Shown piece by piece: positions 29,555 to 64,000 of a stretch of 64,000 nt of DNA. Position 1 is the stretch's first letter; the number at the start of each line of letters is the position of its first letter. This DNA is from a bacterium (GTDB taxonomy: Bacteria; UBP15; UBA6099): contig JAKQPS010000018.1 in the NCBI GenBank assembly GCA_029564595.1, positions 1 through 64,000 on the forward strand. Direction: 5' to 3'. The notes under the pieces are model-generated. The model was not told the DNA's origin. It was given only the letters and a program-made list of their open reading frames with translations, and did no database searches. A program made the position numbers and the translations under genes.

Positions 29555-30718
29555 CTATTTCTTTTGTTTCGGATTTTTGAAGGCTTTCTTGCCGTACAGT
29601 TTTTTCAACTCCGGATTAGCCAGAGCGTTCCGCTTCAACTCCGCGGCAAGCGCCTCCCTCTTGTCCAACAGCCTTTTAAGCGGCTTCTCCCCGACGCTTT
29701 CCATCACGTATCTGCTCAACAGAGGGAAAGTAATCGAGGCGCAGGAGTAAACCACTGTCTGATTGACGGTTTGCCCCTTCACCTTGCCCCAAGATTTCGC
29801 CTCCTGAGGCGTGGCTCCCGATAGGCCGCCCCACTGCGGCGTGTCGGTTGTTAGTTGGATAAAATAGTCGTGCCCGCCGATGTCGTCTTTCAGTATCTGC
29901 CACAGCGTGGGCTGCGTCTGAAGATAGAAATTCTTCGGCGAGCCTCCGCCCACTATCACAACTCCGTTCTTCTTTCCCTGCCTCACTATCGCCGTCGTCT
30001 CAACAACATCCATCACGGGGTCCACCACAATCCTTTTTCCCATGAAATACGGCAGTATCATGTTCATCGCTATGGAGGAATCTCCGGGGGACGAAGTGTA
30101 GATGGGCACGCCGTATGTGACCGCTTGGGCGACCAGAGATTTTTCCGGGAACGGCGCGTCTTTCAGAACTTTTTCTCCCAACAGTTTGTGCAGGGAAGCG
30201 GATGAAACAGGGCCTTTGAATTTGTGCTCGAACGACGCGTCCAAAACCATCGCGTCGGTTGGCAGCAGCGTGTCGTCGTCCATTATGTAAGTGTCGTATA
30301 TCCTAGCGATGCCGCGCTTGTTCAGGAGCGCGTCGTCCACATGCGGAGATCCCTGAATGACCGGAAAATTAAACGCCCTGTGAAAATCGTGATAAAGATT
30401 CGCGCCGGTGGAAATTATCACATCCACGAGGCCGCGCTTCATCAGTTCTATTATCGGGCCGCTCATTCCTATGGGAGTCATCGCTCCGGCCAGCGTCAGG
30501 GCGATGGTCGCCCCGCTCTCCGCCATCCGCCTGTATATGTCGCAAGCCTCGCCGAGCCTTCTGGCGTTGTATCCCGAAGCTCCAAACACATCGTCTATGA
30601 ACTTTTTTACAGAGCCTTCCGCCATCACGTCCAACGGCTCTATCATTCGCCCGTGGTAGTTCCGGCATTTCTTTCTCTCTTTGTATTTCTTTCCATCCTT
30701 GCTCTTTGTGTCAGCCAT
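29555..30718 (-). CDS. Deoxyhypusine synthase-like protein
   Basis: A 387-residue protein of the deoxyhypusine synthase family. It has the NAD-binding segments TLAGAMTPIGM, ISTGANLYHD and YTSSPGDSSI, and GGGSPKNFYLQ, where the Lys corresponds to the catalytic lysine of the GGGxPK loop, plus the closing TDTPQWGGLSGA. Bacteria have no eIF5A, so true deoxyhypusine formation is unlikely; some bacterial members make homospermidine or related polyamines by the same aminobutyl transfer. The start at 30,718 has GAGGA upstream; a TTG at 30,784 overlapping the preceding gene is the alternative. It follows the TIM-barrel epimerase gene and is probably co-transcribed. Confidence 0.85.
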   Translation of the reverse strand: MADTKSKDGKKYKERKKCRNYHGRMIEPLDVMAEGSVKKFIDDVFGASGYNARRLGEACDIYRRMAESGATIALTLAGAMTPIGMSGPIIELMKRGLVDVIISTGANLYHDFHRAFNFPVIQGSPHVDDALLNKRGIARIYDTYIMDDDTLLPTDAMVLDASFEHKFKGPVSSASLHKLLGEKVLKDAPFPEKSLVAQAVTYGVPIYTSSPGDSSIAMNMILPYFMGKRIVVDPVMDVVETTAIVRQGKKNGVVIVGGGSPKNFYLQTQPTLWQILKDDIGGHDYFIQLTTDTPQWGGLSGATPQEAKSWGKVKGQTVNQTVVYSCASITFPLLSRYVMESVGEKPLKRLLDKREALAAELKRNALANPELKKLYGKKAFKNPKQKK

Positions 30719-30780
30719 TATGCATGCGTCCTCTGATGATTTTGAAACTGCCGCGCCTCGCTTCCATTCGACCGCTTCGG

Positions 30781-31710
30781 TCAACCCTCATCTTCCTTAG
30801 CCGATCCTTCCAATCCTCTTAAAAACGCCACGCTTTCACAGACAGCCGATTCCTCCCGCTCGACCTGCCACGGCGGCAGGTTGCACTCTATGGAGAACAG
30901 GCCGTCGTACATTCTGTCCCTGAGTATCTCGACTATCTTGGGTATGTCTATTTCGCCCTGTCCGAGAGGCGATCCCAGCAGCATCGGCCCTGTGTGTTTC
31001 AAGTCCTTAATATGCGTGTATGCCGCGTAAGGAGCCAGCCTCTCGGCGGTCAGCACGGGGTCCTCGCCGAGGAACAGCGCGTTCCCTGTGTCCAGCGTCA
31101 CCATGAAGCTCTCGCTGTCCACTGCGTGAACTATCTGAAGCATTTCTCTCATCGTGTAATCAGAGTGGTTCTCCAAAGCGACGGTAAGCCCTTCGAGCGA
31201 CGCGTCCCTCGTGAACAACTTCAACCTTCGCGATACCTCTTTGATTTCCGCCTCTCGGTCCGTCACCAGATGAAACGGCTTGTGAAACATGTTAGGGATG
31301 ATAAGCCCGCCGTAAACCCTCACTATGTCCGCTCCGAACTCGTGCGCGAGGTCGAACATCTCGTTTTTCATCTTTTCCATCGCCTGAAATATCACTTCAG
31401 GCAGCGAGAACGGCAAGCCGAATCCGAAAACCAACTCAAGACCGGATTCTCTCAGTTTGTCCCTAATCTCCTCGGGATTCTTGCGCATTTCCCGTTTCAT
31501 CATGAAATAATCGAAACCCACGCCGTCCAGCTTCAGTTCGGCTGCCTTGTCGACAACATCCATCAAAGTCATTTTGCCAAGCAGCATCGAGTTATGAAAA
31601 CACCACTCGTCCAGCCCGATTTTCATCGCGGGAAGCGCGTATTCTTCTTCCTCGACTTCTAGCGATTCATCAAGAGCGGTCTCCTGCCGTTCGATTTCTT
31701 CAAGCGTCAT
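30781..31710 (-). CDS. Sugar phosphate isomerase/epimerase-like TIM-barrel protein
   Basis: A 309-residue protein of the xylose-isomerase-like TIM-barrel (AP endonuclease 2) family. The recognisable strands are KIGLDEWCFHNSM, LDGVGFDYF, ADIVRVYGG, LTVALENHSDYT (metal-binding Glu), FMVTLDTGNAL (Asp), YTHIKDLKHTG (His) and DGLFSIECNLPP (Glu), giving a complete metal site. An acidic N-terminal extension of about 28 residues precedes the barrel. The start at 31,710 follows GAGAGG. The family covers isomerases, epimerases and dehydratases of sugars and inositols, and the substrate cannot be told. It overlaps or abuts the deoxyhypusine synthase-like gene. Confidence 0.82.
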   Translation of the reverse strand: MTLEEIERQETALDESLEVEEEEYALPAMKIGLDEWCFHNSMLLGKMTLMDVVDKAAELKLDGVGFDYFMMKREMRKNPEEIRDKLRESGLELVFGFGLPFSLPEVIFQAMEKMKNEMFDLAHEFGADIVRVYGGLIIPNMFHKPFHLVTDREAEIKEVSRRLKLFTRDASLEGLTVALENHSDYTMREMLQIVHAVDSESFMVTLDTGNALFLGEDPVLTAERLAPYAAYTHIKDLKHTGPMLLGSPLGQGEIDIPKIVEILRDRMYDGLFSIECNLPPWQVEREESAVCESVAFLRGLEGSAKEDEG

Positions 31711-31947: not shown

Positions 31948-34900
31948 TCACGGAGTTCTTCTGTCGAACTCGGGGTCGCACAACATTGTGCTTGCCGACA
32001 CCGGAACGGATTTTCCGAAGTTCTTCTTAAGAACGGCGAGGTCGGGCATGCCGATTTTTCCATTCATATCGAAGTCGACCGCGGGGTGGTACTTAGCGTC
32101 GCCGACTTGAGTGCCGAACCTGTATTTGAGAGGATTCATGTTGGGCATACCCACCGTCGGGCTGCAAGTCGGGTTGCCGACATCGCCTCCGCCCGCCGTG
32201 GCGGCGTCGGGCGCGGTTACGCCAGTTACGGCTGTCGCTGCCGTGGCGCTCAGAGTTCCCGCCGCAACAAGAGTCACAACGCATTCTCCCGCAGGCGCGC
32301 CCGCCGCGCATCCCATCAAGCCTGACGCGCTTTGATCCCACGTTCCTTCAGTGAATCTTACCTGCACGACATACTGCTTCGTCGGGTCCACGCAATCGGC
32401 GCATGTTCCGCTCCTCAATCTGAATGTCGGTATCTCTCCGTCATTGTCCGTTGTCGCTGTTTTGACAATCGCTTTTGTCGTATTATCCACCACTTCAATA
32501 GTAACGCCGGGAACTCCAACGGACGCCTTCTTGAAACCTGTCGCCTGCCCCGTCGCTACCAAGCATCCGGCGTCCCCGCTGTTGCATGTCTGTATCTCAT
32601 AAGCGGTAATCGGAGTGTTAAGCGCTATCTCCACCGGACAAGCCTCGGGGTCTATCATGCAAGCGTCCTGCGTGTCCAATCTTACGGCATTTCCCGACAT
32701 CGCTATCTGTGATTCTCCGCATGAGACTCCGGTGTAGCTGACGCCGAAATAGTAGTTGCCTGAGGATGTGACGGGAATGTTCGCGAAAGTTCTCGGCTCC
32801 TGCCCCAATTGCCTGTCATATTCGCCCGCAATCGGCGTAGATGACGTCAGCCTTCCGTAAGGGGTCAAGCAGGACGCCGGGTCCGAGCTGGTGCAAAGAT
32901 ACACATGGTATCCGGCTCCCATCCCGTCGTCGGCTGAGGAATTGGTCCATCCGGCCCTAGCCCCGAAATACGACGGCGCTATCTCGAATCCTTCTACCGC
33001 AGTCGGCACCGCACACTTGTCTGACGGATAACAATGGCCGCAGTTCGAAAGATCGGATGCCGAGTAAATGGAACTCGTGTTTGCGCTAGGATCCTTTGCG
33101 GTCGCGCAATAAATGTAATCCGTATCTGACGTTACGTTTTCATCCATGTAGTTCAGCGTTGACAAAGAAGAGGTCGTAATCTTGGTGAAACTTCCTGCGG
33201 AGGCGCATGTTGCGAATTTTCCTTGGCATCTGTAAACATCGTAAGTGACGGGATTTTTATCAGTCACGGCGGTCCAAGTCGGAGTGCATGAGAACGAGTC
33301 GAACGGAATAGGCTCAATCATTTCCGGCTTACCGGGAGGAGTGGTGTCAAGCGGGGTGCAAATTACGGCTACGGATGTCGGCGGCACCGTGCTGGCGCGG
33401 GAGAATTTGTCAAACATATTGTAAGCGTACGCTCTGTAGCAGTATGGCGTGCCATTGACAAGAGCAGAGCTTGAATGATTGAATTCCGTGTCGCCGCCGG
33501 CCATGACTGTTCTGATAGGAGTGCCGCCGCCGGGTGTGGGCAACGTTGTGCATCCGCCTGACACTGACTCGGTGTGCATTATCTTATAACCCACAAGTTC
33601 GTCGGGTGTCGGATAATCGCAGTTTGCGAAAGGCCCGCCGCCGTCGCCCTCGTCGGCGCATACCTGACTCCAAGTCAGCACACATGTCTGTCCTGTCGGG
33701 TCAGCCGTCACAACCTGATTCTCGGGCCACAACGGGGCGACGTCTGGAACGACCGATGTTATCGTGATACATTTCCGATATTGATAGATAGTGGCGAATG
33801 CGCTGCAGTTGGCCCCCGTATTGGACGGGCATGTGCTTGCCGTCTTGCAATTGTCGCAAGCCTCAACCCAGAAACACCACTCTTGGTCCGTGCTTCCGAA
33901 CGCGGTGTCGTTTGATAGAGACATCGGATTGAGCACAGCCGGATGCGCGATGAGACTTCCGTTCAACTTTGAGTAACCCACAGGCAGTCCGCCGCTATCC
34001 TCTCCGCATGAGGATGGGGTCGCTTTCTGACAGTAATAGACGTTGTAACCGCCGCCGAGCATGTCGTCATCGGCGCTGGGTTCCCAGTTGACAACCACGC
34101 CGTATTTTCCCATTTGAAGAACGACCGAAGGCTCTATCTTGCTGGGCGGCTTCAAGTCTTCGGGGATGCAGCTCGTGGGCGTCCAACTCGATTTATTGTC
34201 GCCGACATCTATAGCCCTGACTTCATAACTGTACGTAGTCGCGTTTATGAGATCCGGATCGTCAAATGAGTTGGGAAGAATTGCGGTGGTGTTCAACTGA
34301 ACTCCGCCTCTTCTAATGTCGAAACCGTAAAGAGACGGGTCGGACGCCTTGTCCGCAACCCAAGTGCAGTAACATTTTTCTTCCTGCCCGGAAGGCGTGC
34401 CGCAGTCGAAACTTGTGGGAGCCGCCGGGGCCACCCAGTCTTCCGGCGTGCATATTGCGGATGTCCATTGCGCTTGAACAGTTTCCTGATTGCCGGGTTC
34501 CGCCGTTGAGTTGAACGAAGAGAAGTAAAAGTATCTCGGATTACCGTTCAACTGATTGCCGGAACTGGGAATGTTATAAGTTTTGTTGTACAGGGCCGAG
34601 CTGTTTTCCGGGAAATTGCTTGCTCCGGACAGCGCGCCGACAAGAGTAGCGGTCGCCTTGTCGTCAACAGTGTTGTAGTAAACGTTATAGTAACTCGTGA
34701 ACGATTTGTCCGGGGACGGAAGTATCTCGAAATTGCAGTTGTTTCCGCCCGGGGGAATAGTCGTTCCCTGTTTGATACAGGTGGAGGTGGTTCCCACGCC
34801 GCCCGTCTGGCATGTGGACGATTTTAGAATCGGAGGAGCCGGTTTTCCCGGAGGAGCTACGGTAACGGACCTGTTTTCCTTAAGCATATCCAGACCGGGC

Positions 34901-36156
34901 GTGAGGTCGACCGCGAAGAACGGCGTGCCGCCGGACAACTGAATCTTTCCGGTCAGGAACACCATCGTCGTGCTTTTGCTTGTCGAGCCGATAATTGATT
35001 TCCCGTTGGGAAGCGAATTCTTGGCGATAAACCTAAGCTCGCTGTTGGTGTATCCTATCTTCAGTTTTGTTTCAGTGTCTGTTCCCACGACGAGTTTGCA
35101 TGCCAACGGGTCCGGAGTGTTCGGGTTGGTGACGCAGTCGCCGTTCCAGAGAACTTTTGCGAGGTTCGGGTCTATAGCTTCCGCTTTCGGAGCGAAAGAT
35201 ACCGCAAATGCGTTCGGGAAATAAACGTCTGCCGGGTTCGGGTCCGCTATATCCGGGTTGAAGAAAATCATTAGATAGCCTTCGATTGCTCCCGAACCGG
35301 ATTGAGGCGGCTGTCCGCCCAGCTTTATTTTCGTGCAAACCACATCGTCCGTCGGCAGTTCTCCGTATCCTTTTCCGGAGCTGGCAGAGTAGCCTCCGAT
35401 ATCAAGTATCTGCCACCCAGAGACTACGGACTGGTCTCCGTTCGCGTCCGGCTCGCCGCAAGTGTCTCCAGTGGGGTCGTTGACGGAATAAGTCGTTCCG
35501 CAAGAAGGAGAACCGGTCTGGTTGTTCGAGCAACGCTCATAGCTGGACATCATGGTGCAGTTGTTCGTCGCCGCTGTTTCATAGTAGTTGTTCCATGATG
35601 TTATGCTTGTGCATGACGCGTTATCGGGGCTTGGAAGCTGGGAAGTGACGTTTCCTCTGCCGTCCACCGCCACGATGTAGTACGTGACAATATCCCCGAC
35701 AACCGCCGTGCTAAGATCGACTTGGCCTTCGAATTTTCCAGTGTCGGAGTTATAGGACATCGTCACCGGCGGTCTTGTGGCGGAAACCTCGTTAATATAG
35801 TAATACAGTTTAGGGTTTCCCTGCTTCAGACAGTTTCCCGTTCCGTTCGGGTTGGGAATGCAAGGTGGATTGGGCACAACGGTTGGGTCGGCCCTTCCCC
35901 ACCATTCCGCCATTGCGCAGTCTTTCTGGTCGCAGTCCTCGCCGCAACAGGCCTGCATCTGTTCCTGTCCTTCGATGGTCGCGTACACCGTCATTACGGC
36001 GCCCTGCACAGCCGAAGAGTTTACTATCGCCGAAATCTTTGGCGTCTTCGGAATGGTTGGGATGTCAAACTCGAATTTGACATCATCCGCTATTGCTCCG
36101 CAGCTCAACAGAACCGCAAGCGCCAGCGCCGCTCCTGCTATTCGTATTCTTTTCAT
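31948..36156 (-). CDS. Giant secreted FN3-repeat protein with dockerin-like end
   Basis: A 1402-residue exported protein. The signal peptide is about 1-24 (IAGAALALAVLLSCGAIA). The body contains several fibronectin type III-like modules, seen as repeated VDLAWE/TWTAV-type strands, with WxP loops and RAYAYN or EVRAIDVG edge strands, and is unusually rich in cysteine, including CCGEDCDQKDC. The C-terminus has a single dockerin/EF-hand-like unit: VDFDMNGKIGMPDLAVLKKNFG. Such units bind calcium and can dock to cohesins, but no cohesin is seen in the window. GGGGGAG precedes the ATG. It is a monocistronic gene with a sigma-54-like promoter and its own terminator. It is probably a surface or extracellular adhesin. 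Confidence 0.82.
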   Translation of the reverse strand: MKRIRIAGAALALAVLLSCGAIADDVKFEFDIPTIPKTPKISAIVNSSAVQGAVMTVYATIEGQEQMQACCGEDCDQKDCAMAEWWGRADPTVVPNPPCIPNPNGTGNCLKQGNPKLYYYINEVSATRPPVTMSYNSDTGKFEGQVDLSTAVVGDIVTYYIVAVDGRGNVTSQLPSPDNASCTSITSWNNYYETAATNNCTMMSSYERCSNNQTGSPSCGTTYSVNDPTGDTCGEPDANGDQSVVSGWQILDIGGYSASSGKGYGELPTDDVVCTKIKLGGQPPQSGSGAIEGYLMIFFNPDIADPNPADVYFPNAFAVSFAPKAEAIDPNLAKVLWNGDCVTNPNTPDPLACKLVVGTDTETKLKIGYTNSELRFIAKNSLPNGKSIIGSTSKSTTMVFLTGKIQLSGGTPFFAVDLTPGLDMLKENRSVTVAPPGKPAPPILKSSTCQTGGVGTTSTCIKQGTTIPPGGNNCNFEILPSPDKSFTSYYNVYYNTVDDKATATLVGALSGASNFPENSSALYNKTYNIPSSGNQLNGNPRYFYFSSFNSTAEPGNQETVQAQWTSAICTPEDWVAPAAPTSFDCGTPSGQEEKCYCTWVADKASDPSLYGFDIRRGGVQLNTTAILPNSFDDPDLINATTYSYEVRAIDVGDNKSSWTPTSCIPEDLKPPSKIEPSVVLQMGKYGVVVNWEPSADDDMLGGGYNVYYCQKATPSSCGEDSGGLPVGYSKLNGSLIAHPAVLNPMSLSNDTAFGSTDQEWCFWVEACDNCKTASTCPSNTGANCSAFATIYQYRKCITITSVVPDVAPLWPENQVVTADPTGQTCVLTWSQVCADEGDGGGPFANCDYPTPDELVGYKIMHTESVSGGCTTLPTPGGGTPIRTVMAGGDTEFNHSSSALVNGTPYCYRAYAYNMFDKFSRASTVPPTSVAVICTPLDTTPPGKPEMIEPIPFDSFSCTPTWTAVTDKNPVTYDVYRCQGKFATCASAGSFTKITTSSLSTLNYMDENVTSDTDYIYCATAKDPSANTSSIYSASDLSNCGHCYPSDKCAVPTAVEGFEIAPSYFGARAGWTNSSADDGMGAGYHVYLCTSSDPASCLTPYGRLTSSTPIAGEYDRQLGQEPRTFANIPVTSSGNYYFGVSYTGVSCGESQIAMSGNAVRLDTQDACMIDPEACPVEIALNTPITAYEIQTCNSGDAGCLVATGQATGFKKASVGVPGVTIEVVDNTTKAIVKTATTDNDGEIPTFRLRSGTCADCVDPTKQYVVQVRFTEGTWDQSASGLMGCAAGAPAGECVVTLVAAGTLSATAATAVTGVTAPDAATAGGGDVGNPTCSPTVGMPNMNPLKYRFGTQVGDAKYHPAVDFDMNGKIGMPDLAVLKKNFGKSVPVSASTMLCDPEFDRRTP

Positions 36157-36203: not shown

Positions 36204-36221
36204 TAGCAAAATTCTTGCCAA
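36204..36221 (-). promoter_or_regulatory. Sigma-54 (-24/-12) promoter of the FN3 gene
   Basis: On the minus strand this reads TTGGCAAGAATTTTGCTA: the -24 GG and -12 GC are 10 nt apart, matching TGGCAC-N5-TTGCW. It lies 47 nt before the start codon at 36,156. The same layout precedes the lipoprotein gene at 60,031. Confidence 0.7.
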
Positions 36222-36308: not shown

Positions 36309-36352
36309 ACCTGTGACTTTTTTGCGAATCGCCTGTGACTTTTTTGTCACTA
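36309..36352 (-). promoter_or_regulatory. Upstream activator site of the FN3 gene
   Basis: On the minus strand this 44-bp segment holds GTGACAAAAAAGTCACAG and then TCGCAAAAAAGTCACAGG: two tandem copies of an A-tract flanked by GTCACAG. It aligns without gaps to 59,815-59,858 (33 of 44 identical). It ends 87 nt before the sigma-54 element, a typical distance for an enhancer-binding protein site. Confidence 0.65.
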
Positions 36353-37267
36353 TATCTGGTTTATCAACAACGGTTTGTTCTCAATATATTCCTGATTGAA
36401 GTACATAAAAATCAGCACTTCCGTCCTTTTATCCTTCTCGATGTTCACTATTAATTTGTCGCATAGATAGCGTGTCAGATAGATGCCCCTGCCGCCCGAA
36501 GCTATGAGGTCTTCCGGGCTTGGATTGACGCCTTTGTTTATCTGGCTCAATACCTTTTCTTTTGAAAGCGAGCCGCTGGAATCGTTTATTACCACTATGA
36601 GTTTTTTATCGTCCGCCCCGTATTGAATCACCACTTCCTCGGTGTCTTTGAGGGCGACGACTGAGCCTTTTTCATATCCGTAGGCGTGATAGATTGCGTT
36701 CGTGCCCATCTCAATGAGGCCGGTTTTCAGCCCGTAGAGTTTTTCCTCGTCTAGGTTGGGGCGCGCGAATTCGATTATGTCGTTGACGGCCGTCTTCAAC
36801 ATGGAAGTCTCTGTTATTTTAACTTTAACGATATTCGGAGAGCCTTCGAGGTAGTTGTCTATGCCGAAGATATTATTGCCGGTGATGAGGTTGTCCACCG
36901 TTCTGATAATCTCATCCGGGGGGTCCATCTTGCATATAATGTTGAAGACGCCTTTTTCGAGGGCCATCTTCATATAGTCGTCGATGTTGAATCCGGTAAT
37001 CATCCCGGTGTTGATGCCGGGGTCGATTTTTTTGATGGCCTCAATCGTCTCGAAGCCGTCCATTCCGGGCATGTTGATATCTGTGAGCACGAACTGGAAC
37101 AGGGGGTTGGGGTCTTCGCGGTCGGCTTCAAAAATTTTGACCGCCTCTTCCCCGGAAGCGGCAAAAACCGCGCTAAAATCTTCTTTTTTTGAAAAGATAT
37201 CCTCAAAGAAGGCGCGGACCGACCTTGAGTCGTCCACAACTAAAATGTGTTTCTTTTCTAAGGTCAT
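36350..37267 (-). CDS. Response regulator fused to anti-sigma-type ATPase
   Basis: A 305-residue protein. Residues about 5-125 form a receiver domain: VVDDSR (acidic pocket), VLTDINMPGMDG (phospho-Asp) and the K of FNIICKMDPP. Residues about 150-290 form a GHKL ATPase of the RsbW/SpoIIAB type: LIEMGTNAIYHAYGY (N-box), VINDSSGSL (G1) and ASGGRGIYLTRYLCD (G2). The combination is a phosphorylation-controlled switch kinase or anti-sigma factor. A STAS-domain gene lies 91 bp upstream on the same strand and is the natural partner. The start ATG at 37,267 is preferred over a TTG one codon earlier. No sigma factor or PP2C phosphatase is in the window. Confidence 0.88.
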   Translation of the reverse strand: MTLEKKHILVVDDSRSVRAFFEDIFSKKEDFSAVFAASGEEAVKIFEADREDPNPLFQFVLTDINMPGMDGFETIEAIKKIDPGINTGMITGFNIDDYMKMALEKGVFNIICKMDPPDEIIRTVDNLITGNNIFGIDNYLEGSPNIVKVKITETSMLKTAVNDIIEFARPNLDEEKLYGLKTGLIEMGTNAIYHAYGYEKGSVVALKDTEEVVIQYGADDKKLIVVINDSSGSLSKEKVLSQINKGVNPSPEDLIASGGRGIYLTRYLCDKLIVNIEKDKRTEVLIFMYFNQEYIENKPLLINQI

Positions 37268-37358
37268 CAATATGAGATAATTCCGGGAGAAAAACCGGAT
37301 GTCCCGTCAGGGAGCCGGAGCGGCGGAGCCGATTCCGGGAATCCCGGCGCTGTGATTG

Positions 37359-56800: not shown

Positions 56801-58283
56801 GATCGCCCCTGCGATATTCCTTCCCGCGGGCACGACCATAATCGCCGACTACCAGTTCAACCCGGAAAGCCCGGACGAGCTTTCGAGGGGATACAAGCAG
56901 CGGATAGCCGGAGCATGGAAACGGGCCGGCACGGATTTCAAGTTCAGCCTCAACTCAGGCGACACCTACTACACTCCCATAGGCGGCGCGTCCGATTTCG
57001 AGGTCGGCAAACTCTCCATGTCGCTGTCGCATAAAATCGGCGATACGTTGACGTTCAGCGCCGACCGGCTGAACGTTGACACCGCGCTCGACCTCGCCGA
57101 CTCCAACAGGCGCTCAAGCGTCCAGACGCGGTTCTCTCTGGCAGGCTCGCTGGGATTCGTCTCCAACTTCAATCTCGGCTACCAAACGCGGGAGACTACA
57201 GACGACCTTTCCCCGGCCCAGACTGACGACAGCGACGACAAGCTCAACCTCACTATGGCGATGCCCCTGCCGTGGCTCAAAAACGCGGACATGACTCTCG
57301 GATACCAGACCGGCGAATACAGCAACAACGTTACCGGAGCCGGAAACACGAACCAAAGCAACACAATCGGCATTAACTACAAGCCAACGTCCAAACTGGC
57401 CCTGACCACCATGTTCGTCGTCAACAAGCTGGATTCGGAGAGCGAGACCCTGACATTTTCCTCTATGAACCGCTCGCGGAAAATCGGAGTCAAATGGACG
57501 CCGTCCACTATGCTGACGCTGACGGCGGACTTGGACACGCAGCAGACGAGCGATTCGCGGCCCACTGTGGCTGACAGGGAAATAAACAGCTCGCGGCTCA
57601 TGCTTTCCACCGCTCCGTTCGGAAACGTCAAATCGGTTGTGATATCTTATTCGCAACAGGACACGCCGAGCGCGACAGGCCCTTCGACGGGGAGCAAAAC
57701 GACCACTTTCACCACCGGATACCTTATCAACAAAGCCCTGACTTTCACTCCCGCTTTCGCTTTCACGGACTCCTACTCAGGAGACACATCCTCCACGAGC
57801 AGCCAGACACAGAACTACAAGCTCGACTTCAGACCTCCCGGAAAAACATATCACGCGGCGATCATGCGCAACCAGACGACTTCGGATGTGACCTCTGCGA
57901 GCGGAACCAACTCCTCCGAAAACTCCGGATGGAATCTGGCTCTGGGCTACGACCCCAGCAAATTTTGGAATTATTCCGTGAATCTTAAAATGGATTCCAC
58001 AAGCTCCGGTTCGGCGTCCGATTTTGAGACATTCTCTTTTTCGGGCCGGGCGATGAACAAGCCCAAGGAAGGCCGCGCCAGATGGCTCAACCTTCAACAC
58101 ACCTCAAGGTCAGGCTCAATTGGCGACACCGCTAGAATCCTCGAACTCGGCTCGGAAAGCAAGCTGTCTGAACTGATATCAATGAACTTCTCATACAAAA
58201 TGTCGCAGCATTCAAGTTCAAGCAGAGAAGACAGCAATTACACCGGCCACATCATTGAAACAACTCTAAAAGCAAACTTCTAA
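53844..58283 (+). CDS. Pro/Glu/Lys-rich exported protein with predicted outer-membrane barrel
   Basis: A 1479-residue exported protein. The signal peptide is about 1-34 (ending VASSASA). Residues about 35-455 are a low-complexity Pro, Ala, Glu and Lys linker like that of TonB or PspC, with short coiled segments such as ELLKIIDDILKKEEEK. From about 460 to the end the protein is beta-rich: DYVLDVFQGTITFNR and DYTVDSVRGEIAPAI units (a strand-turn pattern seen in SprA-like barrels), then a long array of amphipathic strands ending in ETTLKANF. A terminal Phe is the usual outer-membrane barrel signal. The linker would span the periplasm. It may be a porin-like or secretion-related protein; the family is uncertain. 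Confidence 0.7.
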   Translation: MTFERSRIRAARIFAIVTALFFATVMSVASSASAATSADTPQIKPQIFHDAAPQNPQSDELLKIIDDILKKEEEKGKVKPPEFDDVIDSLIYQLENAIPERAEDSAAVKTAEEKPTPPPAPPAPAMPKIQELLDKLDKVGGIETDQSPTEEAEPEKEKEAVAPEIMAEKSAPRIEPEKPVPAAAPAELPVAEKEEKKAATPKPAPVKPTEAPKASEQSKPSQQPATAAPAPVKSAEKKDQTISPRREQAAKRAKTAKPPAPAAPASKTETPQKEKTKPVEKKPEEKTPPPAEQVPKQKPQTASGTTEKTEASQTTSSAAAPPASEQSEIDRLLLRLENSADGTTKEEIKKEETAPRAPERKKRSLTVPSTIMSFPERETVAPAAEPEKTDKKKEKLKRSSETKKAEPPAATASPPAVSPPAAPAPRPSSLVYPSEQPAAPATEQKKDQPEKAADKKTKVELSGYRYLKYRAYESSGASQEFMSREGLRNAGERIEQGTDMTVTASVGDDLKVTGKFYEMPREDRDMTFDILRGHYGLTYGNVSVSLDGGEFAGVSKSADGIGLTYEDSRTDVTALMSKSKSQSGVVSFMGRNIKGPYDLNARDIVGGSVSVTVNDEAAPASDYVLDVFQGTITFNRILSPVDKVTISYEKKLTGGFNAGGLTGIAANRKSANGKFAYGLTHVVQQANRQARKLTESVSLETPVLIIDGGNYFLQVQNRFVVRSDATNGTETIIKNNNVTLQPNIDYNWLAQPGIGAHDIERFYAQGRFLLRTPPDPADTFAVSYSYYTENTSIQETIREPLALDETGSRGFPEKFTIYSGSENIYVCSDIDLNICPILLSPGADYVVQERLNRIDFLIPRNAADEYIRADYWSYPDIGSLETDYDHVVNDIRLKYQPNSDITIEYEMATSLADVSSRPISVTSQTVKVIEADLDCRLPSNAKDCVFPLGKPDIVANTVVLYLNDTVSQESVLKRGSDYTVDSVRGEIAPAIFLPAGTTIIADYQFNPESPDELSRGYKQRIAGAWKRAGTDFKFSLNSGDTYYTPIGGASDFEVGKLSMSLSHKIGDTLTFSADRLNVDTALDLADSNRRSSVQTRFSLAGSLGFVSNFNLGYQTRETTDDLSPAQTDDSDDKLNLTMAMPLPWLKNADMTLGYQTGEYSNNVTGAGNTNQSNTIGINYKPTSKLALTTMFVVNKLDSESETLTFSSMNRSRKIGVKWTPSTMLTLTADLDTQQTSDSRPTVADREINSSRLMLSTAPFGNVKSVVISYSQQDTPSATGPSTGSKTTTFTTGYLINKALTFTPAFAFTDSYSGDTSSTSSQTQNYKLDFRPPGKTYHAAIMRNQTTSDVTSASGTNSSENSGWNLALGYDPSKFWNYSVNLKMDSTSSGSASDFETFSFSGRAMNKPKEGRARWLNLQHTSRSGSIGDTARILELGSESKLSELISMNFSYKMSQHSSSSREDSNYTGHIIETTLKANF

Positions 58284-58321
58284 ACCAAATTTTTAACGAG
58301 AATAATCCGGAAAATAGGATT

Positions 58322-58448
58322 TATTCCATCGTTACCAAGGTCTCCTTGGTAACGGATTGACCGAAAGCTCCGCTTTCTCGTTTTCCTTTATATCTGCGTT
58401 GCCAAGGAGACCTTGGCAACGATGAGCGAGAGACCCTAGCAACGATGA
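58322..58448. repeat. 127-bp twin-hairpin repeat, copy 1
   Basis: It contains two perfect 10-bp hairpins with 3-nt loops: GTTACCAAGG/CCTTGGTAAC (loop TCT) and GTTGCCAAGG/CCTTGGCAAC (loop AGA). The loops are complementary to each other. The copy starting at 58,567 is the same sequence, 245 bp downstream, apparently without change. Confidence 0.85.
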
Positions 58449-58475
58449 GTGATGTTTGATCGTTGTTTGAGAGAA

Positions 58476-58564
58476 TCGGCCACATACGGTCTTGAAGAAC
58501 AGCATAAGCGAAAAACGGGGACTGGCAGCGCGCATCTCAGCGATGCCTGTACCCGCTTTTCGCG
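58476..58564. repeat. 89-bp dispersed hairpin element, copy A
   Basis: The arms GCGAAAAACGGG and CCCGCTTTTCGC pair except for one mismatch and enclose a GGCA/TGCC inner stem. A diverged copy lies at 59,700-59,789, just after the next gene. It may be a REP- or MITE-like non-coding unit, or a transcription terminator without T-tract. Confidence 0.75.
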
Positions 58565-58566
58565 CC

Positions 58567-58693
58567 TATTCCATCGTTACCAAGGTCTCCTTGGTAACGG
58601 ATTGACCGAAAGCTCCGCTTTCTCGTTTTCCTTTATATCTGCGTTGCCAAGGAGACCTTGGCAACGATGAGCGAGAGACCCTAGCAACGATGA
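58567..58693. repeat. 127-bp twin-hairpin repeat, copy 2
   Basis: This is the second copy of the twin-hairpin unit, in the same orientation and adjacent to the dispersed element at 58,476-58,564. The perfect identity over the hairpins implies a recent duplication. Confidence 0.85.
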
Positions 58694-58755
58694 TTAATCC
58701 TAATGATGGCAACGCGATTCAATGAATATCTTTCATGGTTTCGCAACTTTGCTTA

Positions 58756-58784
58756 TTGACACAATGGTTTAAAATGAATAACAT
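58756..58784 (+). promoter_or_regulatory. Sigma-70-type promoter
   Basis: TTGACA at 58,756-58,761 and TAACAT at 58,779-58,784 are separated by 17 bp. The start codon at 58,826 follows 41 bp later. This exported-protein gene thus has an ordinary promoter, unlike its right-hand neighbour. Confidence 0.55.
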
Positions 58785-58825
58785 ACACATTAAGAAGCTC
58801 TGAAAATCATTTTATAAAGAAAGCG

Positions 58826-59683
58826 ATGGTAATAGCGTTGGAAAAAGCGTTCATCCCCTTGTTTGCCGTTATGGTTTTGCTATTCGGAGTTCCGCGCGCG
58901 GTTTTCGCCTCCAGCCCTCAATCCGACCGGAGCTATTCCACGCCTCTTTTTGTTCCCGAAGCTCTGACGCTGGAGCATAATCAGCCGGACCCCGAAAAGC
59001 GAATCGGCGTCTCAATCGGAACAAGCTACGCGCAATTCGGACGGATAGCCAACGTGCCGTCGGCGGACGTTCACATAAGGGCCGAGGGCGCGAACTACCA
59101 CGCTCTCGCGAGCGTAGCCGGGTTCGACGTCTCGTATGTCAAGCAGGACTACAGGCTGACGAGAGTTTCCGGCAAGACAAAGAACGTGGCGAAACACGAG
59201 GCGGATATAATCGGGGTCGGATGGGAGTCAAGCCCCGGACTTTTTCGGCTTCCTTTGAATGGAGGAATCGCTCTCGGCTCCGTTATGTATTTCGACGACA
59301 ATGGAGCCGGGAGCCAGAACTTCGCGCAACACCGGGCGGCATACACGTTCAGGCATGGCAACCGCGTTTCCGGGCGCGTCGGCGCCAACTGGACCACCGG
59401 AGACGTTGAGAACCTTTCCGGCGCTCTGGCTTCGGTTTATTATTCCGTCGGCGACGAATTGACTCTTTACGCCGACTACAACTCGAAGGATATCCACAAG
59501 CTCGTGTTCAACCGGGTTATCCTCCCTTCGGAGGGAATCGACTGCTCGACATGCGGCGACGACGCTCTGTCTGTGGGGATGTCGTTCAAGATACGCGGAT
59601 ACGCGAGAGCCGTAATAGGTTTTTACGATGTGGATGACCTTATGGCTCCGATGGCCGGAATTTCCACTTTCAAGGAATATTGA
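58826..59683 (+). CDS. Exported beta-rich protein, possibly outer membrane
   Basis: A 285-residue protein with an N-terminal signal peptide (about 1-29, hydrophobic IPLFAVMVLLFGV, ending at VFASS). The mature part alternates polar and hydrophobic residues (RIGVSIGTSYAQFGRI, YTFRHGNRVSGRVGANW, GDELTLYADYNSKD), consistent with an 8- to 12-strand barrel, but the C-terminal end (STFKEY) is a less typical barrel signal. A CSTC pair lies near residue 240. I do not recognise the family. It sits between repeat elements and has its own sigma-70 promoter. Confidence 0.6.
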   Translation: MVIALEKAFIPLFAVMVLLFGVPRAVFASSPQSDRSYSTPLFVPEALTLEHNQPDPEKRIGVSIGTSYAQFGRIANVPSADVHIRAEGANYHALASVAGFDVSYVKQDYRLTRVSGKTKNVAKHEADIIGVGWESSPGLFRLPLNGGIALGSVMYFDDNGAGSQNFAQHRAAYTFRHGNRVSGRVGANWTTGDVENLSGALASVYYSVGDELTLYADYNSKDIHKLVFNRVILPSEGIDCSTCGDDALSVGMSFKIRGYARAVIGFYDVDDLMAPMAGISTFKEY

Positions 59684-59699
59684 ACGTATGATAAGAAAA

Positions 59700-59789
59700 T
59701 CGGTCACATTAGGTCATGATGAACAGCAAAAGCGAAAAACGGGGACCGGCAGCGCGCGTTTCAGCGGCTGCCTGTACCCGCTTTTCGCG
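59700..59789. repeat. 89-bp dispersed hairpin element, copy B
   Basis: It matches 58,476-58,564 over about 90 bp with scattered changes that mostly keep the stems (for example GGACCGGCAGC for GGACTGGCAGC). Copy B begins 16 bp after the preceding stop codon. Compensated hairpin differences suggest that the folded form is maintained. Confidence 0.75.
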
Positions 59790-59814
59790 GTTCCTGCGGG
59801 ATTGGCGCTATCAA

Positions 59815-59858
59815 TTGTGACAAAAATGCCGCATGTTAGTCGCAAAAATGTCACAGTC
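59815..59858 (+). promoter_or_regulatory. Upstream activator site of the RCC1 lipoprotein gene
   Basis: The segment contains TTGTGACAAAAATG and TCGCAAAAATGTCACAG. It aligns without gaps to the minus-strand site at 36,309-36,352 (33 of 44 identical) and, like it, ends 87 nt before a sigma-54 element. TGTGACA and TGTCACA at its two ends are inverted. Confidence 0.65.
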
Positions 59859-59945
59859 TGGTGAAAATGAGCCGAATTCGAACAAAACTATTGTCAACTT
59901 TTACATGCTTTTGCCCGCTTTTGCAACGCGGTTTTCTCCGCGCGG

Positions 59946-59963
59946 TTGGCATGGTTCTTGCCC
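59946..59963 (+). promoter_or_regulatory. Sigma-54 (-24/-12) promoter
   Basis: TTGGCATGGTTCTTGCCC matches the TGGCAC-N5-TTGC consensus, with GG and GC 10 nt apart. It lies 67 nt before the start codon at 60,031 and 87 nt after the upstream site. Confidence 0.75.
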
Positions 59964-60030
59964 TACATTTGCAAAAGCGCCAAAAAGCTATTCGCTGTTA
60001 AGTCAAATATTAACTAAGCCGAGGTGTCTG

Positions 60031-63000
60031 ATGAATAAATCGAGGATGATTTGCGCGGGACTGTTGTGTCTGATTCTAGCGGCGGCAGGTTGCGGGGGCG
60101 GCGGAGGCAGGGGAACGCTGCTGCCGAGTCAGCCGGGCGCTCCGGCGGCGAATAAGTTGTCCCGCGTCATCGGCTATGTGTATGACGGCGACGGTCGGCC
60201 TGTGTCCGGCGTTCGAGCGCAATCGGTCACTACGGCGCGGGGCGTGCGCGTCGCGGCTGCGGGCGGTGGCGCTTCCGCCGTTTCGGACGCCAACGGCATG
60301 TTCTATTTCTCCGTTTCCTCTTCTCCGGCTGAAAACGAGCGCATCGTCCTCAAACTCTCCAAAGGCGGCTATGTTGACAACCATGTTGTTTACCGGGTTC
60401 GATACTCCGCCGTTGAGAACGAGGATTTGCTGATGCCCGTCAGGATGTTGCGCGCGCCGGGAAGCGAGTCGCCTGAGACCGCCACAGTGGCGGAAGTCAG
60501 GCGCGCGAACGGCACGACCGCGATTTTCACGCCGACGATAGTGACCGACCCCGACAGCGGGCTGCCTGTGGCAAGAACAGTCGTCACCATCGAAGACGAC
60601 ATCCAAGAAGTGTCATTCAAGCTGCCGTCGCCGGCAAACACGAATGTGTCGTCCGTGACGTTCACCATCGGGGGCGCGGTGTCTGCTGGCAGGTCCGCCG
60701 GACGGGTTCTGGGCAGCGAGGGCGGCTCGATTCAGGTCACAGGTTCGCTGTTCTATGGCGACCCGACGGACCCCAAGGCTCTTGAGGTGTTTCCGGGCGA
60801 GTTCCTGACGAAGGACAATGTCCCCAGCAGCGCGGCGCGCAGAACAGCGGGCAGCGGGGGCGGCGGCGAAGGGGTTCTAGTCACAGCCGGGTTTACCCAG
60901 ATAAAGCTAACGGATTCTTCGGGAGACGAGATAACTTCATTCGCGGACGGCGCGGAGGTCGGCGTTGTGATGCGGGTTCCCGACGGCGTCTTCAATCCCG
61001 ACACCGGGGCGACTGTGGCCGAAGGCGACAACGTGCCGATTTTTACTTATGACGAAGCAGCCGGAGAATGGAAAGTCGAGTATAACAGCAACGGGACGAT
61101 CAAGCGCGGAACAGTGATGCGGGACACCGACGGCCTCTACGTGCCCTTCACCACCGACCACCTTTCTTGGTTCAACCTCGATTGGAAGGGCCTTCGATGC
61201 CCCGACGGCCATCCCGCCATCAAAGCGGTTGATGATACGGGAGCTTATTTGACGAGTTTTTCTGTTTCAACTTTACATAGTGATTCCGCATTTTGGACAT
61301 ACCCCATGCAGACCAATGACGGCATAGCAGAGTTCATGAGCGCTCCGGCTGACATCCCGTGGAGCATTCGGGTTTGGGCGGAAGGTTTCTATAGCGACAC
61401 TGTTAGTATGATTGGATGCAATGACGTTACCATTCCTATGCATCGACTAAATGGCACAAGAGTTTACGCGAATGCCACATGCGGAGGCCGCGCTTACTCT
61501 GATGTCAATATTTATGCGTACAAGGAAAATATTCGAGTAGGCTCCCAAAAAGCCTTACACGGCACAGCATCTCTATTGCTCCCTCCCAATACTGAAGTAA
61601 CGATATACGGCATATCAACTGACAGTTGCAAGGACATTAAGAGCGATTTATTGACGACCACTAACGCATACACTGCGCAATCAGTGCAATTGTTATTTGA
61701 CAATGCTTGCTGTCCAACAAACAGCTACGATGAGCCTCTGCGTGTTTCAGGCCTAACGCCTGCCAAAGCGATAGGTGTTAATCCAGAAGCGTCAGTAAAT
61801 GGAACCATAGTTTTCTCCAAACCCGTGATGTATCCAATTTTCTTTGATATGCCTCTCACAATCACGCTCAAACAGGGAGCAGACACTATTCTTGATAATG
61901 TTGCGGCTTCGACTCTCGGAACCGTTTCATGGCCTGACGCATCTGTAGGAACCGCTCAGACACTTTCATTCACTGTCGCCCGCGCAGACGATATTCAAGC
62001 GGGAAAAACTTACTCCTTCACCGTCGGCCTTGCCCCATCATACATTATCGCAGATGACGGCGCGGAGCTCGAACTCTCTTCCTATCTTTCCTCAACATCG
62101 GGCGTCGTCTCATACACTGCCGCAAGCGTCACTGGCTCATTCTCCACAGTGTCTGACGGAACCAACAGGCTGCCCGAACCTGTCCCCGGGCCGGACAAAG
62201 ACGCCGGAATCGGAGCGCTCGTCACACTTGACGGCTCCGAAAGTTCAGACCTCGACGGAGACCCGCTCACGTTCGACTGGGAACAGGTTTCAGGGCCGTC
62301 TGTCGTCATTTCAAACTCTACCTCCGCCGTTGCGACGTTCACCCCGTCCACCGCCGGCGTTTATGTCTTCAAACTAACTGTCAACGACGGCAATGGCGGA
62401 ATAGTAAGCGCTCAGACAACAGCCACCGTCTGCAATATCTTCTGCGGAACTAACGCGGACTGCGACGACAGCGACCCGCTCACGTCCGATGTGTGCGAGA
62501 ATCCAAACACATGCAGCGCGGAATGCTCGAACACAACATGCTCGGCTGAATGTTCGTCAGACTCCGATTGCGACGACAGCGACCCGAACACAGTTGACGA
62601 ATGTTCCGCCCCCGGAACTTGCGAAGCCGCCTGCGTCAACTGCATACCCGCGTGCGAGAACAACTCTCAATGCAATGATTCCGACCCGCTCACATTTGAC
62701 ACATGCGAGAACACGAACACATGCGCCGCCTCTTGCGTCAACACGCCCATAGAATGCAATACGGACACGGACTGTTACGGGGGAACCCCAGCCTGTATTA
62801 ATGGCGGACTACTTTCTTCTGATTGCGTTGTTTGTGTAAATAATTCACACTGCGATGATTCAGCCCCGTTAACATGGGATGTGTGTGAGAATCAAGGACA
62901 AATCAACGCCTATTGTTCAAACACGCCTTGCGAAGCCGCCTGCTATTCCGCTTCCGATTGCAATGACGGAAACCCGGACACGAATGATATGTGCTTCGCT

Positions 63001-64000
63001 CCAGCCTCATGCGAAGCGGAATGTTTATCCTTTTCAAATTTAAACGTAATCTCGGCAGGATACTCACATTCATGTGCAATCCACACGAACGGAACCGTCA
63101 AATGCTGGGGAGATAATAGCTATGGTCAACTTGGCGACGGCTCGACGACGAATTCATTGGTGCCTGTAACAGTAACAGGCATTTCTAACGCCGTATCCGT
63201 TGATGTAGGTTTTTATAATCACACCTGCGCGGTTCTTTCAGACGGACAGGTCAAATGCTGGGGATATAATGGACATGGTATACTTGGCGACGGCACGACA
63301 ACAAGTTCATACATGCCCGTGACCGTAACAGGCATTTCTAACGCCTCATCCGTTTCAGCAGGCGGAAATCACACCTGTGCGGTTCTTTCAGACGGACAGA
63401 TCAAATGCTGGGGAAATAATTCAAATGGTCAATTTGGAGACGGCACGACGACGGCTTCATCCGTGCCCATAGCTGTAACTGGCATTTCTAACGCTTCATC
63501 CGTTTCAGCAGGTGATCTTTACACCTGCGCGGTTCTTTCAGACGGACAGATCAAATGCTGGGGATGGAATGATTTCGGTCAACTTGGCGACGGCACTACG
63601 ACGGATTCACTCGTGCCTATATCCGTAACAGGCATTTCTAACGCCGTATCCGTTGCGGTAGGAAACGGTTATTTACCACATTATACTCACACCTGCGCGG
63701 TTCTTTCAGACGGACAGGTCAGATGCTGGGGGAATGGTGGCTATGGTCAACTTGGGAACGGCACGACAACCGATTCATCCGTGCCTGTAGCCGCAACAGG
63801 TGTTTCAACCGCAGTATCCGTTGATGTAGGTTTTTATCACACCTGCGCGGTTCTTTCAGACGGACAGGTCAAATGCTGGGGATATAATATGTATGGTCTG
63901 CTTGGGAACGGCACGACGATAAGTTCAAAAGTGCCTTTATATGGAACAGGCATTTATAATGCCATATCCATTTCGGTAGGAGGCGATCACACCTGCTCTG
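60031..64000 (+). CDS. RCC1-repeat lipoprotein, runs off the right edge
   Basis: Open from 60,031 to the window end (1323 codons, no stop). A GAGGTG site precedes the ATG. The N-terminus ends in lipobox LAAAGC, so it is a lipoprotein. Domains in order: a carboxypeptidase-regulatory-like beta module (VIGYVYDGDGRPVSGVRAQ, about 45-115); an all-beta region to about 700; a PKD-like domain (ALVTLDGSESSDLDGDPLTF, about 730-790); five or more Cys-rich repeats of the form CDDSDPLTxDxCENxNTCxAxC (about 810-1000); and RCC1-type blades (CAVLSDGQVKCWG...GQLGDGTTT), each about 50 residues, continuing past the edge. The blade DNA is near-identical at a period of about 150 bp. It is probably a surface adhesin or carbohydrate-binding protein controlled by sigma-54. 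Confidence 0.88.
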   Translation, partial: MNKSRMICAGLLCLILAAAGCGGGGGRGTLLPSQPGAPAANKLSRVIGYVYDGDGRPVSGVRAQSVTTARGVRVAAAGGGASAVSDANGMFYFSVSSSPAENERIVLKLSKGGYVDNHVVYRVRYSAVENEDLLMPVRMLRAPGSESPETATVAEVRRANGTTAIFTPTIVTDPDSGLPVARTVVTIEDDIQEVSFKLPSPANTNVSSVTFTIGGAVSAGRSAGRVLGSEGGSIQVTGSLFYGDPTDPKALEVFPGEFLTKDNVPSSAARRTAGSGGGGEGVLVTAGFTQIKLTDSSGDEITSFADGAEVGVVMRVPDGVFNPDTGATVAEGDNVPIFTYDEAAGEWKVEYNSNGTIKRGTVMRDTDGLYVPFTTDHLSWFNLDWKGLRCPDGHPAIKAVDDTGAYLTSFSVSTLHSDSAFWTYPMQTNDGIAEFMSAPADIPWSIRVWAEGFYSDTVSMIGCNDVTIPMHRLNGTRVYANATCGGRAYSDVNIYAYKENIRVGSQKALHGTASLLLPPNTEVTIYGISTDSCKDIKSDLLTTTNAYTAQSVQLLFDNACCPTNSYDEPLRVSGLTPAKAIGVNPEASVNGTIVFSKPVMYPIFFDMPLTITLKQGADTILDNVAASTLGTVSWPDASVGTAQTLSFTVARADDIQAGKTYSFTVGLAPSYIIADDGAELELSSYLSSTSGVVSYTAASVTGSFSTVSDGTNRLPEPVPGPDKDAGIGALVTLDGSESSDLDGDPLTFDWEQVSGPSVVISNSTSAVATFTPSTAGVYVFKLTVNDGNGGIVSAQTTATVCNIFCGTNADCDDSDPLTSDVCENPNTCSAECSNTTCSAECSSDSDCDDSDPNTVDECSAPGTCEAACVNCIPACENNSQCNDSDPLTFDTCENTNTCAASCVNTPIECNTDTDCYGGTPACINGGLLSSDCVVCVNNSHCDDSAPLTWDVCENQGQINAYCSNTPCEAACYSASDCNDGNPDTNDMCFAPASCEAECLSFSNLNVISAGYSHSCAIHTNGTVKCWGDNSYGQLGDGSTTNSLVPVTVTGISNAVSVDVGFYNHTCAVLSDGQVKCWGYNGHGILGDGTTTSSYMPVTVTGISNASSVSAGGNHTCAVLSDGQIKCWGNNSNGQFGDGTTTASSVPIAVTGISNASSVSAGDLYTCAVLSDGQIKCWGWNDFGQLGDGTTTDSLVPISVTGISNAVSVAVGNGYLPHYTHTCAVLSDGQVRCWGNGGYGQLGNGTTTDSSVPVAATGVSTAVSVDVGFYHTCAVLSDGQVKCWGYNMYGLLGNGTTISSKVPLYGTGIYNAISISVGGDHTCS

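Follow-up and report, generated by a model that had tools for sequence, protein, structure and literature searches.

The stretch of UBP15 DNA that was analysed, referred to as the window, comprises 64,000 nt and carries two genes for very large exported proteins. One codes for an RCC1 lipoprotein and the other for a giant Cys-rich protein, and each is preceded by a 44 bp site (A and B, respectively) and by a sigma-54-type promoter element (Table 1). Immediately upstream of site B, a gene (36350-37270) codes for a fusion of a receiver domain and an HATPase_c_2 domain (anti-sigma-type kinase). A gene of the deoxyhypusine synthase family (PF01916), here in a bacterial host, is found near the giant gene (29555-30784 in the window).

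Table 1. Features associated with sites A and B (positions refer to the window unless indicated otherwise).
Feature	Position	Strand	Remark
Site A, 44 bp	59,815-59,858	+	Upstream of the RCC1 lipoprotein gene
Site A, distal box, TGTGAC-AAAAAT-GCCGCA	59816..59833	+	Register shared with the palindromic distal boxes of other promoters
Site A, proximal box, AGTCGC-AAAAAT-GTCACA, then G	59838..59855	+	22 bp downstream of the distal box
Sigma-54-type -24/-12 element TTGGCATGGTTCTTGC (GG-N10-GC) of the RCC1 lipoprotein gene	59946..59961	+	
Gene under site A: 1,358 aa lipoprotein, lipobox LAAAGC, RCC1 and PKD repeats, 55 Cys	60031..64000	+	Runs on to contig position 64,107
6.9 kb segment with site A and its gene	Contig 58,282-65,214 (window part about 58,283..64000)	.	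From comparison with UBA6099
Site B, 44 bp	36,309-36,352	-	Upstream of the giant Cys-rich gene
Site B, distal box, AGTGAC-AAAAAA-GTCACA	36334..36351	-	The stop codon of the preceding gene overlaps this box
Site B, proximal box, ATTCGC-AAAAAA-GTCACA, then G	36312..36329	-	
Sigma-54-type element TTGGCAAGAATTTTGC of the giant Cys-rich gene	36206..36221	-	
Gene under site B: 1,402 aa exported protein, 57 Cys, C-terminal X-dockerin-like region	31948..36156	-	

Sites A and B agree at 33 of 44 positions; on both strands of the 64 kb window, no other sequence matches site A at more than 24/44. Both sites are separated by 87 nt (from their 3' end) from an element of the form TTGGCA-N6-TTGC, which occurs in the window at these two places only. 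An earlier note on this DNA had described the pair of sites, and its coordinates, its identity value, and its gap length all proved to be exact upon recheck.

A search of the 4.4 Mb source genome with the core AAAAAWGTCACAG returned 10 matches at six loci, while the reversed control returned none. These loci are the end of contig C92, the start of contig C93, contigs C123 and C139, and sites A and B in the window. When up to three mismatches to a 19-mer were allowed across the whole genome, no locus beyond the six was found. At all five loci with readable downstream DNA, a -24/-12-like element is found 88-89 nt away, and a composite pattern (half-site, 78-105 nt, TTGGCAN6TTG) retrieved these five loci together with two unrelated matches. 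The palindromic pattern TGYGACN6GTCRCA is confined to the six site loci in the source genome; across seven genomes it occurs at 10 places, nine of which are sites of this kind while the remaining one (in G004) differs in its centre. A weight-matrix scan of ~450 kb around the activator genes of the source genome revealed no additional box, with real boxes scoring at least 21.7 bits and the next best sequence 17.3 bits. The genome search proposed in the earlier note has in substance been run here: the readable genes behind the sites are large exported-protein genes only, and the sites did not turn up equally often away from GG-N10-GC elements, which that note had named as the result that would speak against it.

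The 44 bp site had previously been treated as a single unit. Its sequence stands, but its make-up of two boxes, the better of which is an 18 bp palindrome, had been overlooked. Every 44 bp site consists of two boxes with A5-6 centres which are 22-23 bp apart. The exception is one promoter of the family (G002 C17, L084), which has one palindromic box rather than two, as if a repeat unit had been lost through recombination between the boxes. The best box is the palindrome TGTGAC-A6-GTCACA, found near-perfect at the distal position, and its arms covary (TGTGAC/GTCACA in some promoters, TGCGAC/GTCGCA in others). The proximal box retains GTCACAG, its left arm being usually degenerate. The distal box of site A has the lowest weight-matrix score and, with its GCCGCA arm, deviates most. 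Counted upstream from TTGGCA, the palindrome ends at 112 nt and the second box at 89-90 nt, which fits the dyad activator site ~100 nt upstream that is typical of sigma-54 promoters. GTCACAG and TTGGCA are separated by 88 nt in C92, C123, and C139 and by 89 nt in A and B.

The gene under site B belongs to a family with paralogs in the genus, and the genes behind the sites B, C139, and C123 code for paralogs of one ~1,400 aa exported Cys-rich protein. The C92 and C93 sites are located at contig ends, with the genes behind them outside the readable DNA. Because C-terminal fragments of the giant family are found at further contig ends (C86, C117), it is suggested that these two sites precede more family copies. 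The RCC1 lipoprotein of site A is unrelated to the giant family. The predicted regulon would thus comprise at least three, and probably five, paralogous giant exported proteins and one RCC1 lipoprotein. The giant Cys-rich protein has no significant match in Pfam or NCBIfam, but ~120 residues near its C-terminus show a profile match to the X-dockerin of cellulosomal scaffoldins (4wi0_B, E 5.3e-6, profile positions 1259-1379). Of its former designation as an "FN3/dockerin" gene product, the dockerin part agrees with this profile match, while FN3 was not detected by Pfam. The protein under site B ends in ...LAVLKKNFGKSVPVSASTMLCDPEFDRRTP, which is not a PEP-CTERM (no NCBIfam match). When the structure of the giant protein was predicted as two halves, the mean pLDDT values (46 and 45) were too low to support a search for similar folds. 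A riboswitch or other RNA element in the leaders was considered and rejected, Rfam detecting none there.

Site A and the gene under it are part of a 6.9 kb segment (Table 1) which is lacking in UBA6099. At the syntenic place, which is otherwise ~90% identical, ~28 bp stand in this genome. The segment codes for an unassigned 285 aa protein, the RCC1 lipoprotein, and a lipoprotein with an FGE-sulfatase domain. Among the four species searched, the RCC1 lipoprotein under the site is restricted to the source species. Orthologs of the RCC1 gene which carry the site in relatives were sought and had to be dismissed, as the congeners have no full ortholog; the DNA upstream of distant N-domain homologs of the RCC1 protein carries no such site.

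Three congeners (G003, ADurb.Bin236; G002, UBA6099; G001, USCA_metabat.19_sub; names inferred) have the module in front of the giant Cys-rich family wherever the gene is readable. The TTGGCAAGAATTTTGC element is retained in the orthologous promoters of G003 C87 (with GC) and G002 C11 (with GA). Searches of relatives outside the genus, from the same family and order, yielded neither core matches nor composite matches of this kind.

The promoters fall into three classes (C92/C123/C139; B; A). C92, C93, C123, and C139 carry duplicate copies with common flanks or flanking repeats. A transposase gene of the IS110 family (RNA-guided) is located ~430 bp upstream of one site copy (L026 4092-5180, C123). 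The spacers of A and B are identical at 43 of 89 positions in an ungapped comparison, a value reached by 0 of 5,000 shuffles. As judged from the sequences, the A and B cassettes share descent. Their equal gap is thus inherited: the equality of the two 87 nt gaps, on which the earlier note had built an argument, is real, but it is no independent coincidence because the spacers are related. Since A and B are related by descent and the other copies are duplicated, the number of independent origins is small.

More independent evidence is provided by the third promoter background (C139/C123/C92), in which the spacer is at background level while the site and the gap (1 nt shorter) are kept. When compared to C139, the spacer is identical at 27/88 positions for A and at 26/88 for B, which is background (24.7 expected for the 26/88 comparison). 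With 67% identity, the gene behind B and that behind C139 are homologs. The fact that the spacer between these homologous genes has decayed, while the boxes, the -24/-12 element, and the gap are kept, is the best evidence for selection acting on the arrangement. Three species share site B as an ortholog, their 44 bp being 100% identical and the spacers ~80%.

The hallmark of a sigma-54 promoter is GG at -24 and GC at -12 with 10 nt between them. GG-N10-GC is found in A, in B, and in the G003 ortholog of B; 10 of the 13 promoters, among them one B ortholog, read GA at -12. RpoN is encoded once per genome, and the source genome codes for 13 full sigma-54 activators. Four activators (C131a, which is of the GAF type, C138a, C138b, and C181) are common to all four congeners, and several others are absent from incomplete genomes only, so that the phyletic profile singles out none. 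No activator gene of the source genome adjoins a site, and there is no box near any of them. Activator genes which share a contig with a site in G003 C13 were rejected as candidates because the source genome is devoid of orthologs despite its six site loci. The C92 activator, which shares its contig with a site, was discarded as a candidate because it is only ~55-57% identical to its congener matches. Seven of the 13 activators were compared to the PrsR model TIGR02915 (cut-off 502.6 bits), the best of them scoring 436 bits; among the matches listed, none of the seven is above an NCBIfam cut-off.

We consider it likely, with a probability of roughly 80%, that one sigma-54 activator controls a small regulon from the 44 bp sites, which would serve it as tandem upstream activating sites. 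A small regulon under one activator had been proposed in the earlier note, and the genome search and the conservation in three related species argue for it at the sequence level. The palindromic box TGTGAC-A6-GTCACA would be occupied by one dimer of the activator (an enhancer-binding protein), and the weaker box, which is two helical turns (22-23 bp) closer to the promoter, by another. The AAA+ oligomer assembled at the boxes would loop the ~90 bp of DNA, contact the RpoN-polymerase at the -24/-12 element, and open the promoter by ATP hydrolysis. The predicted outcome of such sigma-54-dependent activation is the co-induction of the giant Cys-rich exported proteins with their dockerin-like ends and of the RCC1-repeat lipoprotein from the accessory segment. 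The GA at -12, the shared descent of cassettes, and the lack of an activator gene adjoining a site are points against the tandem-site model.

The shared site might merely be a by-product of the duplication of promoter plus gene, its likeness reflecting descent and not maintained regulation. The common flanking repeats of C92, C93, C123, and C139 and the related spacers of A and B fit this explanation. We nevertheless consider it unlikely, because boxes and gap are intact between C139-type and B-type promoters although their spacers are at background, because the orthologs of B hold the 44 bp site more strictly than the spacer, and because the arms of the palindrome change in pairs. It is quite improbable that the boxes serve a CRP/FNR-type or other dimeric regulator on a sigma-70-type promoter with TTGGCA as the -35 box. 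The arms TGTGA...TCACA do resemble CRP half-sites, and the -12 GC is absent from most copies. However, a CRP site is TGTGA-N6-TCACA, while the arms found here are spaced as TGTGA-N8-TCACA, and by eye no -10 hexamer is common to all three classes at a distance of 16-18 nt from TTGGCA. The fixed position ~90-112 nt upstream and the GG-N10-G(C/A) pattern fit sigma-54, and the genome codes for RpoN and many activators.

That A-type and B/C139-type sites are recognized by two distinct activators, so that there is no single regulon, would accommodate the deviating distal box of site A (GCCGCA arm, lowest score). With register and spacing being equal, and with A and B cassettes of common descent, we regard this as very improbable.

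By analogy, this system would work like the known sigma-54 regulons of CbrB and PrsR, while the site itself is apparently undescribed, its sequence not being found in a limited search of the literature. In the PEP-CTERM / PrsK-PrsR regulon of Proteobacteria (Haft et al. 2006, PMC1569441), a sigma-54 motif and an upstream, sometimes repeated, activator motif likewise precede many exported surface-protein genes, with a mean spacer of 62.8 nt (range 32-92). However, PrsR motif 1 ends in TTTACA (PMC1569441), PrsR targets end in PEP-CTERM whereas the giant proteins from UBP15 end in an X-dockerin-like region, and none of the seven activators tested from the source genome reaches the PrsR model cut-off. 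The CbrB sites of Pseudomonas putida (TGTTAC, GTAACA, GTAACA) are positioned on one helix face before sigma-54 promoters (PMC6296734). The UBP15 version (TGTGAC, GTCACA, GTCACA) also has one forward and two reverse half-sites, but it differs in half-site sequence and in spacing: contiguous CbrB subsites are 20-25 bp apart (PMC6296734), whereas in UBP15 it is 12 bp from the forward to the first reverse half-site and 22-23 bp between the reverse ones. For Desulfovibrio vulgaris, the main text of PMC4641369 describes sigma-54 activator sites with TGT/ACA half-site classes 9, 11, or 12 bp apart, most regulons having one to four operons and the largest share of promoters being <100 nt from the site. 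The UBP15 site would fall into the TGT-N12-ACA class of that text, which itself has no TGTGAC/GTCACA string; phylum and targets differ from the UBP15 case.

Somewhat short of even odds, and thus tentatively, we suggest that a dedicated sigma-54 regulon with an undescribed site runs a lineage-specific system of giant dockerin-ended surface proteins in UBP15, and that its ready-made cassette was placed before an unrelated accessory gene, which may thereby have been recruited. The analysis predicts a regulon in the uncultured phylum UBP15, ties together giant surface proteins which are without family assignment, and gives the activator-site geometry exactly. A long activator-site/promoter cassette that is common to unrelated genes lets one ask how sigma-54 regulons recruit genes.
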